Positions 52,963 through 55,943 of a DNA stretch of 64,000 nucleotides are shown here, piece after piece. Made by a program: the position numbers and the translations under genes. Under the pieces are notes generated by a model, which was given only the letters and a program-made list of their open reading frames with translations, did no database searches and was not told the DNA's origin. This DNA is from Leifsonia sp. Root4 (GTDB lineage Bacteria; Actinomycetota; Actinomycetes; Actinomycetales; Microbacteriaceae), in assembly GCF_001425085.1 (NCBI RefSeq), contig NZ_LMDN01000004.1, positions 310,001-374,000 on the forward strand. The letters are read 5' to 3'. Every line of letters starts with the position of its first letter. Positions within the stretch are counted from its first letter, which is position 1.

Positions 52963-53601
52963 TCAGCTCAGGCGCACCAGCGGGTTGAGGCCGAGGGCGC
53001 GCTCGGCGGCTCCGGCCAGGCCGGCGCTCTCGAGCCAGTTGCCGAGCATGCGGTAGCCGCCTTCGGTCAGAACCGACTCGGGGTGGAACTGCACGCCGTA
53101 CAGCGGCGCGCTCTCGTGCCGGAGACCCATGATCACGCCACCCTGCGTCCGGGAGGTCACGACGAGCTCGCCGGGAACCGTGGACTCGACGACGGCGAGC
53201 GAGTGGTATCTGGTGGCCGTGAACGGCTGCGGAACACCGGCGTAGAAGGCGCTGTCGTCGTGACTGACGAGCGAGGTCTTGCCGTGCATGAGCTCCTCGG
53301 CGTTGGTGACGGTCGCCCCGAACGCCTCGGCGATGGCCTGGTGGCCGAGGCACACGCCGAGCAGCGGCTGCCCGGCGGCGAATGCGGCGCGCACGGTCGC
53401 GATCGAGACGCCGGCGTCTGCGGGCTTGCCGGGGCCGGGTGAGACCAGCACGGCGTCGAACTCCGCGGCCCGGGCCGCGGCATCCGCGGCCGAGTAATCG
53501 TCGTTGCGCACGACGACGGTCTCGGCGCCGAGCTCCTGCAGGTACCCGTTCAGGGTGTAGACAAAGCTGTCGTAGTTGTCGATGACGAGTATGCGAGTCA
53601 T
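52963..53601 (-). CDS. trpG: glutamine amidotransferase component of anthranilate/aminodeoxychorismate synthase
   Basis: Supplies ammonia from glutamine to a chorismate-using partner. It is 212 aa. ILVIDNYDSFVYTLNGYLQE at the N-terminus, PGPG loop, nucleophile Cys in LLGVCLGHQAIAEA, HGKTS, and the catalytic His-Glu in GVQFHPESVLTEGG. The ATG at 53601 overlaps the small gene upstream by four bases. TrpG versus PabA cannot be settled, as no synthase large subunit is in the window. It converges with pknB. Confidence 0.93.
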   Translation of the reverse strand: MTRILVIDNYDSFVYTLNGYLQELGAETVVVRNDDYSAADAAARAAEFDAVLVSPGPGKPADAGVSIATVRAAFAAGQPLLGVCLGHQAIAEAFGATVTNAEELMHGKTSLVSHDDSAFYAGVPQPFTATRYHSLAVVESTVPGELVVTSRTQGGVIMGLRHESAPLYGVQFHPESVLTEGGYRMLGNWLESAGLAGAAERALGLNPLVRLS

Positions 53602-53756
53602 GTTCCGACCGTTGCTTCCTGGTTGTTGATGAGCGTCTCCACCCACGGGAAGACCCAGGTGGAGAGGGAGTAGAGGACCGCGACCGCGAGCAGCAGCACG
53701 AGAATGATGCGTACCCAGATCGGTCCGGGGAGAACCCGCCACAATGCACCGTACAT
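53598..53756 (-). CDS. 52-aa single-pass membrane protein
   Basis: Below the size usually called. MYGALWRVLPGPIWVRIILV is followed by LLLAVAVLYSLSTWVFPWVE and a short tail TLINNQEATVGT: one strong membrane helix with a conserved-looking Trp/Pro-rich frame. It starts 3 bases after the sortase stop and its TGA overlaps the trpG ATG, so it is translationally embedded in the sortase-trpG unit. Small proteins of this kind occupy the same position in related genomes (general knowledge). Function is unknown. Confidence 0.85.
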   Translation of the reverse strand: MYGALWRVLPGPIWVRIILVLLLAVAVLYSLSTWVFPWVETLINNQEATVGT

Positions 53757-53759
53757 CGG

Positions 53760-54554
53760 TCAGCCCTCCTGCGCCTGAGCGGCGACTTGTGCGGCAATCT
53801 CGGCCGGCGGCCCCGCGCTGAGCGGCTGCCAGCTCTCGAAGACGCCGTAGGCGATGATGCGCTCGTCGGTGGACAGCAACGGATTGCAGCTCGTCAGCGT
53901 GATGAGCCGCTCACCGGGAACGACGCCATCCTGGCGCGGAACCGGTGCGAGAACGTCGCCGGCGCTCGGCTGCACGTACTCGAGATTGCGGAACCGGTAG
54001 GTGTAGTAGCCGTCGGCCGTCTGCACGTAGATCCCGTCACCGAGCTGGAGCTCGTTGATCAGGTGCATGCCACCGCCCCAGGCGCTGCGGTGCGCGGCCA
54101 GCGCCATGTTGCCGACCTCGCCGGGCATCTGGGTGTTCTCGTAGCGGCCGACGCCGAGGTACATGCTGTTCAAGACATCCACGGTCGTGCCCACGGCGAT
54201 GTTGCGCGCGTACTCCGGCCCGTAGCGCGGAATGTAGAGCACGCCGAGAATCTCGCCGTGCTCGGGAGGCGCGGCGACGGGGGGCTCCCCGTAGTCGACC
54301 GGCGTCGCCGGGTCCTCCGGTGCCTGCGGGGTGAGGGGCGCCTCGGCCTGGGCGATCCATTCCTGACTCTGGGATGCCGCAGAGCTCTTCTGTTGATTGG
54401 CCATCACCGCGTCATTCCACCACAGCTGCCAGGCGAGGAAGAGCAGCACGAGCACGCCGGCCGTGATGAGCAACTCGCCGAGGACACCGACGACGCTGAC
54501 GCGCCGCCCGGCGCGACGCCGCGTCGGCGGGGTCGCAGCGTGGGCCTCGGTCAT
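53760..54554 (-). CDS. srtE: class E sortase
   Basis: Membrane-bound transpeptidase that anchors surface proteins. It is 264 aa. N-terminal helix about 22-46; acidic/Pro linker; sortase beta-barrel with His155 (LAAHRSAWGG), Cys223 (TLTSCNPLLSTDER) and Arg232. TAGGAT ends six bases before the ATG at 54554, giving a leaderless transcript. It is divergent from crgA. The TLTSCNP motif is typical of housekeeping class E enzymes. Confidence 0.94.
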   Translation of the reverse strand: MTEAHAATPPTRRRAGRRVSVVGVLGELLITAGVLVLLFLAWQLWWNDAVMANQQKSSAASQSQEWIAQAEAPLTPQAPEDPATPVDYGEPPVAAPPEHGEILGVLYIPRYGPEYARNIAVGTTVDVLNSMYLGVGRYENTQMPGEVGNMALAAHRSAWGGGMHLINELQLGDGIYVQTADGYYTYRFRNLEYVQPSAGDVLAPVPRQDGVVPGERLITLTSCNPLLSTDERIIAYGVFESWQPLSAGPPAEIAAQVAAQAQEG

Positions 54555-54560
54555 GGCCCA

Positions 54561-54566
54561 ATCCTA
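54561..54566 (-). promoter_or_regulatory. -10 element TAGGAT for leaderless sortase mRNA
   Basis: On the minus strand TAGGAT, then TGGGCC, then the ATG at 54554. Confidence 0.65.
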
Positions 54567-54632
54567 TTCGAGCCATGACCGGCGCCCCGCTGTGCTCAGC
54601 AACTCCGAGGGGATCAGGATAGAATCGCTCGC

Positions 54633-54875
54633 ATGGCACGCACGAAATCATCGAAGCCCGCACCCGTGGTTGACAACCGTTCTGGTGAAGACGCCCCGAA
54701 CGCGGTGTGGTTCAAGCCCGTGATGTTCGGCTTCATGCTGCTCGGGCTGGTGTGGATCATCGTCTTCTACGTGAGCCAGGGCGCTTGGCCCGTTGCCGCA
54801 CTCGGTTCGTGGAACATCCTGGTTGGTTTCGGCATCGCCTTCATCGGCTTCCTCATGACAACTCGCTGGCGCTGA
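54633..54875 (+). CDS. crgA: cell division protein CrgA
   Basis: An 80-aa division regulator that contacts FtsZ, PBPs and Wag31/FtsQ in other actinobacteria. The PNAVWFKPVMFGFMLLGLVW block and VAALGSWNILVGFGIAFIGF mark the two membrane helices, and the C-terminus MTTRWR is typical. TAGAAT (54620-54625) lies seven bases before the ATG, suggesting a leaderless transcript. A perfect terminator follows. Confidence 0.95.
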   Translation: MARTKSSKPAPVVDNRSGEDAPNAVWFKPVMFGFMLLGLVWIIVFYVSQGAWPVAALGSWNILVGFGIAFIGFLMTTRWR

Positions 54876-54897
54876 CGCCACCGCTCATCGACAGTCT

Positions 54898-54928
54898 GGT
54901 CGCCGCCCGTTGGGCGGCGACCATTTTT
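54898..54928 (+). terminator. intrinsic terminator of crgA
   Basis: GGTCGCCGCCC, loop GTT, GGGCGGCGACC, then ATTTTT: an 11-bp perfect stem with a U-tract. Confidence 0.93.
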
Positions 54929-54977
54929 GTGCCGGCAGCGGGCCGCGGGCGTCGGGGCATGTAACCCCATTAGAAAG

Positions 54978-55077
54978 TTATCCACAGCCGTTTACCCGTG
55001 TGGAAAGTTACATCCGTGTAATTATCCCCAGTGTTAATAACCCTGTGGATAGATTCTGTGGAGAACTCTGTGGAGAG
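54978..55077. other. DnaA-box cluster in convergent intergenic gap
   Basis: Six 9-mers related to the DnaA box: TTATCCACA (54978-54986, exact consensus), TGTGGAAAG (54999-55007), TTATCCCCA (55022-55030), TGTGGATAG (55044-55052), TGTGGAGAA (55057-55065) and TGTGGAGAG (55069-55077). Four are reverse-strand; the last three are 13 and 12 bases apart. An AT-rich patch (GTGTTAATAACC) lies in the middle. It is flanked by the crgA terminator and the 3' end of the rhomboid gene, so it is not a promoter. Confidence 0.75.
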
Positions 55078-55088
55078 ATCGGCGCCCG

Positions 55089-55943
55089 TCAGAACAGCGG
55101 GAAGAAGAAATAGCGCAGGCTGAGGAGCATCAGAACGAGCGAGAACGCCACGAGGAGGACGATCTGCAGCTTCTGCTGATCGCGCTTGCGCGTCTCGACG
55201 AAGATCAGTCCGACGATGGCGCCACCGATGAGACCACCGAGGTGTGCCTGCCACGCGATGTTCATACCGGGGATGAACCCGATGACGAGGTTGATGCCGA
55301 CGAGGACGAGCAACTGCTTGGCGTCGCCGCCGAGCCGACGCTGGATCACGAGGAACGCGCCCATCAGGCCGAAGATGGCACCGGACGCCCCGACGACAGG
55401 GGTCAGCGGATCACTCAGCAGCAGAACGCCGACCGATCCGGCGAATCCGCCGATCAGGTAGAGCGCAAGGAAGCGCCAGCGCCCGAGGAGCTGTTCGAGT
55501 AGCTGCCCGAAGATCCACAGCGTGTACATGTTCAGCAGCACGTGGAAGATGAAGCCGGTCGAGTGCACGAACATCGCCGTGATCATGCGCCACGGCTCAA
55601 ACGATCCCGGGTGTGAGTACACGCCGGCGTACCAGAGCGCTCCGGTCACCTGCGCGCCGATGACGGGCAGGACCTGCAGCACGAAGATGAGCAGGGTGAT
55701 GCCGATGAGGCTGTACGTCACAACGGGCGCGCCCTGCCCCGTCATCCGGGTCAACAGCGCCGACTTGGTGCGTGGCGCCGATGCGCGCTGCTCACTCATG
55801 CATTCGGGGCAGGTAACGCCAACTGCCCCGACTGTTTGACAGTCGGGGCAGATGGTACGGCCACAACGCTGACAGAGCACGAAGCTCTGACGCGAGGGGT
55901 GCCGGTAGCAATAGTTTGCCGCCGAGTCCGGCACCGAGCTCAT
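55089..55943 (-). CDS. rhomboid family intramembrane serine protease with zinc-ribbon N-terminus
   Basis: A 284-aa intramembrane protease. A cytoplasmic N-terminal zinc-binding segment (CYRHPSRQSFVLCQRCGRTI, then CPDC and CPEC) precedes six helices. The catalytic dyad is Ser187 (GASGAIFGLM) and His234 (WQAHLGGLIGG); HVLLNMYTLWIFG is the conserved Asn-containing helix. Start ATG 55943, 7 bases after the ppiA stop, so it is co-transcribed with ppiA. Substrate unknown. Confidence 0.92.
   Translation of the reverse strand: MSSVPDSAANYCYRHPSRQSFVLCQRCGRTICPDCQTVGAVGVTCPECMSEQRASAPRTKSALLTRMTGQGAPVVTYSLIGITLLIFVLQVLPVIGAQVTGALWYAGVYSHPGSFEPWRMITAMFVHSTGFIFHVLLNMYTLWIFGQLLEQLLGRWRFLALYLIGGFAGSVGVLLLSDPLTPVVGASGAIFGLMGAFLVIQRRLGGDAKQLLVLVGINLVIGFIPGMNIAWQAHLGGLIGGAIVGLIFVETRKRDQQKLQIVLLVAFSLVLMLLSLRYFFFPLF

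Follow-up and report, generated by a model that had tools for sequence, protein, structure and literature searches.

Within a 64-kb window (C4:310001-374000) of the 3.87-Mb genome of Leifsonia sp. Root4, here called G000, we identified a conserved element in the gap between the cell division gene crgA and a convergent rhomboid-family gene. Positions given without a contig or locus prefix are those of the window. The element consists of an 18-bp palindrome (55006-55023), which had been overlooked in an earlier sequence-only reading of this DNA, and of three adjoining DnaA boxes that together with it form the conserved core. The anatomy of the element, its conservation and the likeness of its palindrome to the whiB2 operators of the mycobacterial regulator McdR (ResR, Rv1830) are observations on the genomes themselves. 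We consider it rather probable that the crgA gap is a composite DnaA-control site outside the replication origin (oriC) that is gated by McdR and couples replication initiation to cell division.

The sequence-only reading had reported six DnaA-box-like 9-mers in 100 bp (54978-55077). The cluster was recovered in our scan and the count was not, as the stretch holds seven boxes if two mismatches are tolerated, four of which have no more than one. When the 64-kb window was shuffled 60 times under a first-order Markov model, the maximum per 100 bp was one box at the stricter and three at the looser threshold; none of the 60 shuffles was as dense as the observed stretch, and chance clustering was rejected. 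The one exact TTATCCACA was found to start at 54978, and the in-phase boxes TGTGGATAG, TGTGGAGAA and TGTGGAGAG at 55044, 55057 and 55069, with the spacing of 13 and 12 bp that had been described. The AT-rich centre was also seen, with 58% A+T at 54996-55055 versus 32% across the window. TGTGGAGAA and TGTGGAGAG, the pair of boxes at the right end on which emphasis had been laid, proved to be absent from the family-wide core. An RNA element was considered and rejected: Rfam gave no match within the gap at gathering scores, and the RNA of the gap folds better than shuffled sequences, which we attribute to the terminator behind crgA and the inverted boxes.

The order of the parts in the core is fixed. 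The palindrome, of the WTTACAC-NN-GTGTAAT type, is followed by box 1 (TTATCCCCA) in forward orientation, by box 2 in reverse orientation and, after about 3 bp, by box 3 (TGTGGATAA), which is also reversed and usually has CT next to it. A pattern scan of named genomes yielded at least 120 matching stretches, and the 80 listed ones were examined. The centres of palindrome and box 1 are 11-12 bp apart in all 80, and box 1 and box 3 are separated by 21-24 bp in these listed loci, both ranges being bounded by the search pattern itself. In 76 of the 80, the element lies no more than 1.5 kb from the 3' end of crgA. Nearly all of the listed loci come from Actinobacteria of the studied class (Microbacteriaceae, Mycobacterium, Prauserella, Dermatophilus, Nostocoides, Arsenicicoccus, Phytoactinopolyspora and others), and one is from an Acidimicrobiaceae metagenome bin. 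The published McdR motif AATnACAnnnnTGTnATT was matched exactly by 13 of 30 family core sequences and in relaxed form by 27; among 38 order-wide core sequences, the matches were 11 exact and 24 relaxed. Two of the pattern matches, L193:1120 in a Propionibacteriaceae bin and L211:503 in Mycolicibacterium iranicum, have none of the searched marker genes nearby. Outside the class, a DnaA-box-like triplet with a palindrome on either side was seen near position 1500 of three loci (L268, L274, L278).

Conservation of the box spacing in the crgA-rhomboid gap of relatives had been proposed as a check. Its outcome was positive, and the conserved unit, palindrome plus three boxes, went beyond box spacing alone. 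The gap is present in all five genomes of the genus, in which a block of 60 columns, from -10 to +49 relative to the palindrome, is invariant and most flanking blocks vary. In the family, BLAST matches were obtained in 145 of 299 genomes, representing 52 of 85 genera. A sequence-only model built from family loci (R1) matched 241 of 396 genomes of the order, and a broader model (R2) matched 187 of 296 genomes of the class and 99 of 246 of the phylum, many of the latter matches covering the boxes only; these model counts include the genomes whose loci built the models, which match by construction, and the E-values come from a shortened calibration. A second match of model R2, at C4:364975-365021 of the minus strand (E 3.5e-7), marks a weaker copy of the array that lies left of the core, in mirror orientation, in the window's genus.

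The position beside crgA is likewise maintained. All 30 top-scoring family loci hold crgA and rhomboid matches; the element separates the two genes in 26 of them, and in the other four it lies beyond crgA. These four belong to a single genus (g3; L027-L030) in which the rhomboid gene is on the other side of crgA and the element is still beside crgA. A further 30 top-scoring loci comprised 18 with crgA, eight with the rhomboid gene and no crgA, one with dnaA and three with no marker match, and a further set of 20 regions comprised 18 with crgA and two with the rhomboid gene only. Some of these locus sets were the best-scoring ones, and others were picked by hand among the matches listed.

McdR, of the MerR family, is essential in mycobacteria; it regulates their division and represses whiB2 via AATnACAnnnnTGTnATT (PMC9040748). 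According to the text of that study, the effect is lost on alteration of the inverted repeat or of the length of its spacer, a change of spacer sequence is tolerated, and the whiB2 operator lies around the transcription start (PMC9040748). The crgA palindrome shares with this operator the inverted repeat with a 4-bp spacer. The two differ in their surroundings: the crgA palindrome adjoins three DnaA boxes and has no clear promoter, whereas the whiB2 operator is without adjacent DnaA boxes. In 14 loci, no DnaA box with one mismatch or fewer was found inside 60 bp of the whiB2 palindrome. Because the whiB2 copy lacks boxes and the five best mycobacterial DnaA regions given in the text of PMC7738170 do not include whiB2, the palindrome alone is no evident DnaA site. 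From its sequence, we infer that the crgA-gap palindrome is an McdR/ResR operator, at which McdR may bind.

In G000, the relaxed motif ANTNACANNNNTGTNANT occurs in exactly two places, before whiB2 and in the crgA-gap element. The same two places were the only ones in G001 and G004 (the reversed-pattern control gave 0, 0 and 1 matches in G000, G001 and G004, respectively), and G003 has one further site. Upstream of whiB2, a palindrome scoring at least 15 was found in 27 of 28 class genomes versus 7 of 2800 shuffles, and the relaxed and strict motifs in 15 and 12 of the 28, respectively, versus none of the 2800 shuffles. This test covered 28 of 30 genomes; G149 and G334 were left out, their best hit not being a whiB2 orthologue. 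The exact pattern TTACACNNGTGTAA was present in 67 of 150 family genomes versus one genome for the reversed pattern. It is absent from G000, where the window copy is the near variant TTACATCCGTGTAA.

Twenty loci with TTACACNNGTGTAA-type sites were chosen by hand, mainly away from crgA. Fourteen of the sites are upstream of whiB2, four are 0.8-0.9 kb upstream of nrdE, one is the crgA element, and one is elsewhere. All four nrdE-upstream palindromes, from loci of the family (L291:1542, L292:1554, L296:1502, L304:1500), have two or three DnaA boxes with one mismatch or fewer no farther than 60 bp away. In genome G055 (L300:1572, 5161), two palindromes with DnaA boxes are found 3.6 kb apart, in a stretch with none of the searched marker genes. 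The motif search in two mycobacterial genomes also found a site ahead of a gene that begins with MPSIPQSLLWIS, which we take to be a homologue of Rv0996. The text of the McdR study gives Rv0996 as an McdR target (PMC9040748). Orthologues of McdR itself (PF13411) were detected in 19 of 22 BFN-gene loci, all from families other than that of the window, and the proteins of a mycobacterium and of a member of the order are 63% identical.

The DnaA-box site sits directly 3' of crgA, as in the actinobacterial Rv0010c-Rv0011c type, Rv0011c being crgA. DnaA binds this gap of M. tuberculosis in vitro, and the homologous region is bound by DnaA in M. smegmatis cells, as determined by chromatin immunoprecipitation followed by sequencing (ChIP-seq) (PMC7738170, Hicks et al. 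2020). In clinical M. tuberculosis, convergent mutations cluster in a small palindrome that precedes the start of Rv0010c by 65 bp and is described in that text as two DnaA-box-like sequences with no obvious correspondence in other bacterial species; Rv1830, MerR and whiB2 go unmentioned in its main text (PMC7738170). The site upstream of Rv0010c that was obtained for HigA2 in an ATCAC-spacer-GTGAT search is stated to be the DnaA interaction site (PMC11205783). Of 19 mycobacterial loci entered in a distance test, one (L175) was unmatched by the pattern and 18 were measured. The palindrome end and the start codon of the Rv0010c-like gene are 66 bases apart (65 counting one flanking base) in 17 of them, and the distance is three bases less in L158.

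Because of this matching distance and the statement on the HigA2 and DnaA site, we take the crgA element to be the published mycobacterial DnaA site and would interpret the palindrome in it as an McdR/ResR operator. The mutated mycobacterial palindrome and the McdR-type palindrome thus appear, by distance and description, to be the same site. The window and the Rv0010c-Rv0011c site have in common the place behind crgA and the box cluster, with the palindrome at the published distance in mycobacteria. They differ in the neighbouring gene, which in the window is the rhomboid gene; as this gene converges on crgA, no start codon lies downstream of the element. The conservation of the element and the reported DnaA binding at its mycobacterial counterpart (PMC7738170) both support the proposal that the boxes form a DnaA-binding cluster outside oriC.

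The converging genes and the perfect terminator behind crgA, both part of the sequence-only reading, were found again as open reading frames (ORFs) with domain matches and as a 12-bp stem with a T run (Table 1). The coordinates of the rhomboid gene (55089-55943) depend on the start codon that we chose. The dnaA-dnaN gap, the candidate for the canonical oriC, is on the same contig at C4:377241-377677 and contains two exact DnaA boxes. It is about 12.2 kb from the element, in keeping with the expectation of an oriC near dnaA/dnaN at more than 9 kb; the element does not adjoin dnaA or dnaN, about 12 kb away, and so does not have the adjacency of oriC. The cumulative GC skew over 82 kb, raw and uncorrected for gene strand, has its minimum near the element (window about 53000-55000, C4:363-365 kb) and not at dnaA. 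Elsewhere in G000, three DnaA boxes are located at C4:399421-399577 (L285:3922-4078), just 5' of an ORF that resembles dnaB by eye; they recall another DnaA site reported upstream of dnaB in mycobacteria (PMC7738170). Two exact DnaA boxes, 68 bp apart, were seen at C4:446506 and C4:446574 (L286:3507, 3575).

Table 1. Features of the crgA gap and its surroundings, and the whiB2 upstream palindrome of G000.
Feature	Position	Strand	Remarks
crgA, cell division protein	54633..54875	+	ORF; PF06781, E 4.9e-27; its 3' end marks the locus
Intrinsic terminator 3' of crgA	54897..54923	+	12-pair perfect stem, 3-nt loop, T run; fold z -4.0
Left DnaA box, exact TTATCCACA	54978..54986	+	outermost box of the weaker mirror-oriented left array copy
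Left DnaA-box-like 9-mer, 2 mismatches	54999..55007	-	box scan
18-bp imperfect palindrome AGTTACATCCGTGTAATT, proposed McdR/ResR (Rv1830 family, MerR) operator	55006..55023	.	one mismatch to published AATnACAnnnnTGTnATT
Core DnaA box 1, TTATCCCCA	55022..55030	+	overlaps palindrome by 2 bp
Core DnaA box 2, TGTTAATAA in window	55032..55040	-	TGTGNAYAA-like in most other families
Core DnaA box 3, TGTGGATAG in window	55044..55052	-	TGTGGATAA in most relatives
Extra DnaA box TGTGGAGAA	55057..55065	-	not in shared core
Extra DnaA-box-like 9-mer TGTGGAGAG	55069..55077	-	not in shared core
Rhomboid-family gene, convergent with crgA	55089..55943	-	ORF; PF01694, E 1.6e-34
whiB2 upstream palindrome	C1:512856-512873		whiB2 strand reads AATGACAACGGTGTAATT; relaxed motif scan

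Several observations weigh against an McdR-gated site beside crgA. The window palindrome, with its 4-bp spacer, departs from AATnACAnnnnTGTnATT by a single mismatch at the second base. The mcdR gene was located neither in G000 nor elsewhere in its family; it is missing from the three BFN loci of the window's own genus, where a direct genome search for mcdR was not made; the BFN gene of this genus has a different context from elsewhere, where mcdR is its neighbour, and BFN was not found in eight of 30 genomes, five of them from the window's family. Two papers on McdR make no mention of crgA, Rv0010c or Rv0011c in their main texts. A scored match was lacking in 154 of 299 genomes of the family (BLAST), 155 of 396 of the order, 109 of 296 of the class and 147 of 246 of the phylum. 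In families f4 and f6, the element is near the rhomboid gene and 1.6-5.6 kb from crgA (L073, L074, L076, L078), and two Streptomyces-like loci (f37) keep the boxes beside crgA with the palindrome absent. One of the 28 whiB2 regions (G807) has no palindrome, and in G297 (g36) the crgA palindrome is changed and the whiB2 palindrome is not. Finally, in four genomes of family f3 (G388, G414, G300, G401; L068:16104, L069:8731, L071:9778, L072:9279), palindrome and boxes are upstream of dnaA and not by crgA, which tells against a simple form of our reading and could also be taken to favour an origin-linked function; in G388, this element spans the ends of a single-contig record.

The alternative that survives best is a site for DnaA alone, resembling datA, DARS or a titration site, in which the palindrome would be two head-to-head DnaA-box-like sequences with no second protein. 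The in vitro and M. smegmatis ChIP-seq binding of DnaA at the mycobacterial locus, the published description of the palindrome (PMC7738170) and the two f37 loci with boxes alone would all suit it. We nevertheless regard it as unlikely, given that the whiB2 copies of the palindrome have no nearby DnaA box at the one-mismatch limit in any of the 14 loci and that whiB2 is outside the five best DnaA regions in the text of PMC7738170. Moreover, the palindrome agrees with the McdR motif down to the fixed length of the spacer, and its half-site, TTACAC or TCACAC, is a poor DnaA box as judged by eye.

An ordinary operator, serving crgA, the rhomboid/Rv0010c gene or an unannotated RNA, appears improbable. 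The mycobacterial site is indeed 65-66 bp before the Rv0010c start, and one promoter-like match was found in the window on the minus strand (55049-55021), but the window site is between two gene 3' ends and behind a terminator, and the element stays by crgA despite the changed gene order in genus g3. The expression of Rv0010c and Rv0011c is, according to the text of PMC7738170, unchanged in dnaA mutants, and an RNA would not agree with the Rfam result for the gap. The secondary origin element suggested in the sequence-only reading, or an outlying segment of a bipartite oriC, is very improbable, even with the f3 composites upstream of dnaA, model matches to the box part near dnaA in four of five loci checked in family f68 and a local GC-skew turn near C4:363-365 kb that is uncorrected for gene strand, because the canonical dnaA-dnaN gap with its two exact boxes is 12 kb away and dnaN, recF, gyrB and gyrA would be transcribed head-on to forks leaving the element.

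Other candidates for the protein on the palindrome were set aside. To our knowledge, the spacing or half-sites of BldD and WhiA do not fit, and we know of no class-wide HigA2. HigA2, which bound the M. tuberculosis site at 8 micromolar (PMC11205783), was therefore rejected as a general partner. FtsR (Rv1828) is distinct from McdR within the MerR proteins, and its motif is not the same (PMC6683498). WhiB2 is an unlikely partner because G149 and G334 carry the crgA palindrome and have only 48-49% identical whiB hits.

Small clusters of DnaA boxes outside oriC are known from E. coli, where datA and DARS1/2 are paired with a second DNA-binding protein, IHF or Fis. We liken the crgA-gap element to them by description and not by sequence, and the box layout differs. 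Streptomyces coelicolor reportedly has DnaA-box clusters named H69, H24 and D78 near oriC, one of which is said, from work by Smulczyk-Krawczyszyn in 2006, to lower initiation frequency; H69, we presume, may lie beside crgA. The Streptomyces-like loci examined here differ from the crgA-gap element in being without the palindrome.

At the McdR-gated site that we propose, an McdR/ResR dimer would occupy the palindrome and DnaA the three boxes, which begin at or within the palindrome edge (2-bp overlap in the window). Abutting or overlapping, and one helical turn apart, the two proteins would cooperate or exclude each other, and McdR occupancy would gate the assembly of DnaA on the boxes. The site may titrate DnaA and/or change its state, whether by inactivation or by reactivation. 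The titration suggested in the sequence-only reading is a sensible but incomplete account. As the site is close to oriC, it is expected to be duplicated early in each round, which would change the DnaA balance just after initiation. The repressor of whiB2, for which repression has been shown in mycobacteria, would also adjust initiation about 12 kb away, and McdR would link the DnaA balance to the division programme through whiB2. Binding of McdR to its motif at other promoters was shown in mycobacteria (PMC9040748); for the crgA gap, we infer both McdR binding and an effect of McdR on DnaA.

As far as the literature examined goes, the type of DnaA site is already known in mycobacteria, and the wide conservation, the fixed architecture and the McdR-type operator are new. 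We found no paper in that literature joining McdR/ResR to the crgA-gap site; the resR study, reportedly a 2022 Science paper, and the McdR tables from DNA immunoprecipitation followed by sequencing (DIP-seq) might already do so. The DIP-seq gave five peaks, with three targets named in the text (PMC9040748).

Our findings place the motif of a regulator inside a DnaA site and show that the two have been retained together through much of a bacterial class and partly beyond it. The purpose of the mycobacterial DnaA site becomes testable in harmless actinobacteria, and a simple mechanism is predicted, namely that McdR and DnaA compete or cooperate where their sites abut or overlap. We see an even chance that actinobacteria carry a dedicated and ancient site for coupling replication to division, usually by crgA, with McdR/ResR and DnaA side by side, and that the recurrently mutated, cryptic DnaA site of tuberculosis is its ResR operator. 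If this is true, resR and the Rv0010c-Rv0011c gap, each discovered on its own as a target of selection, would work via a single switch.
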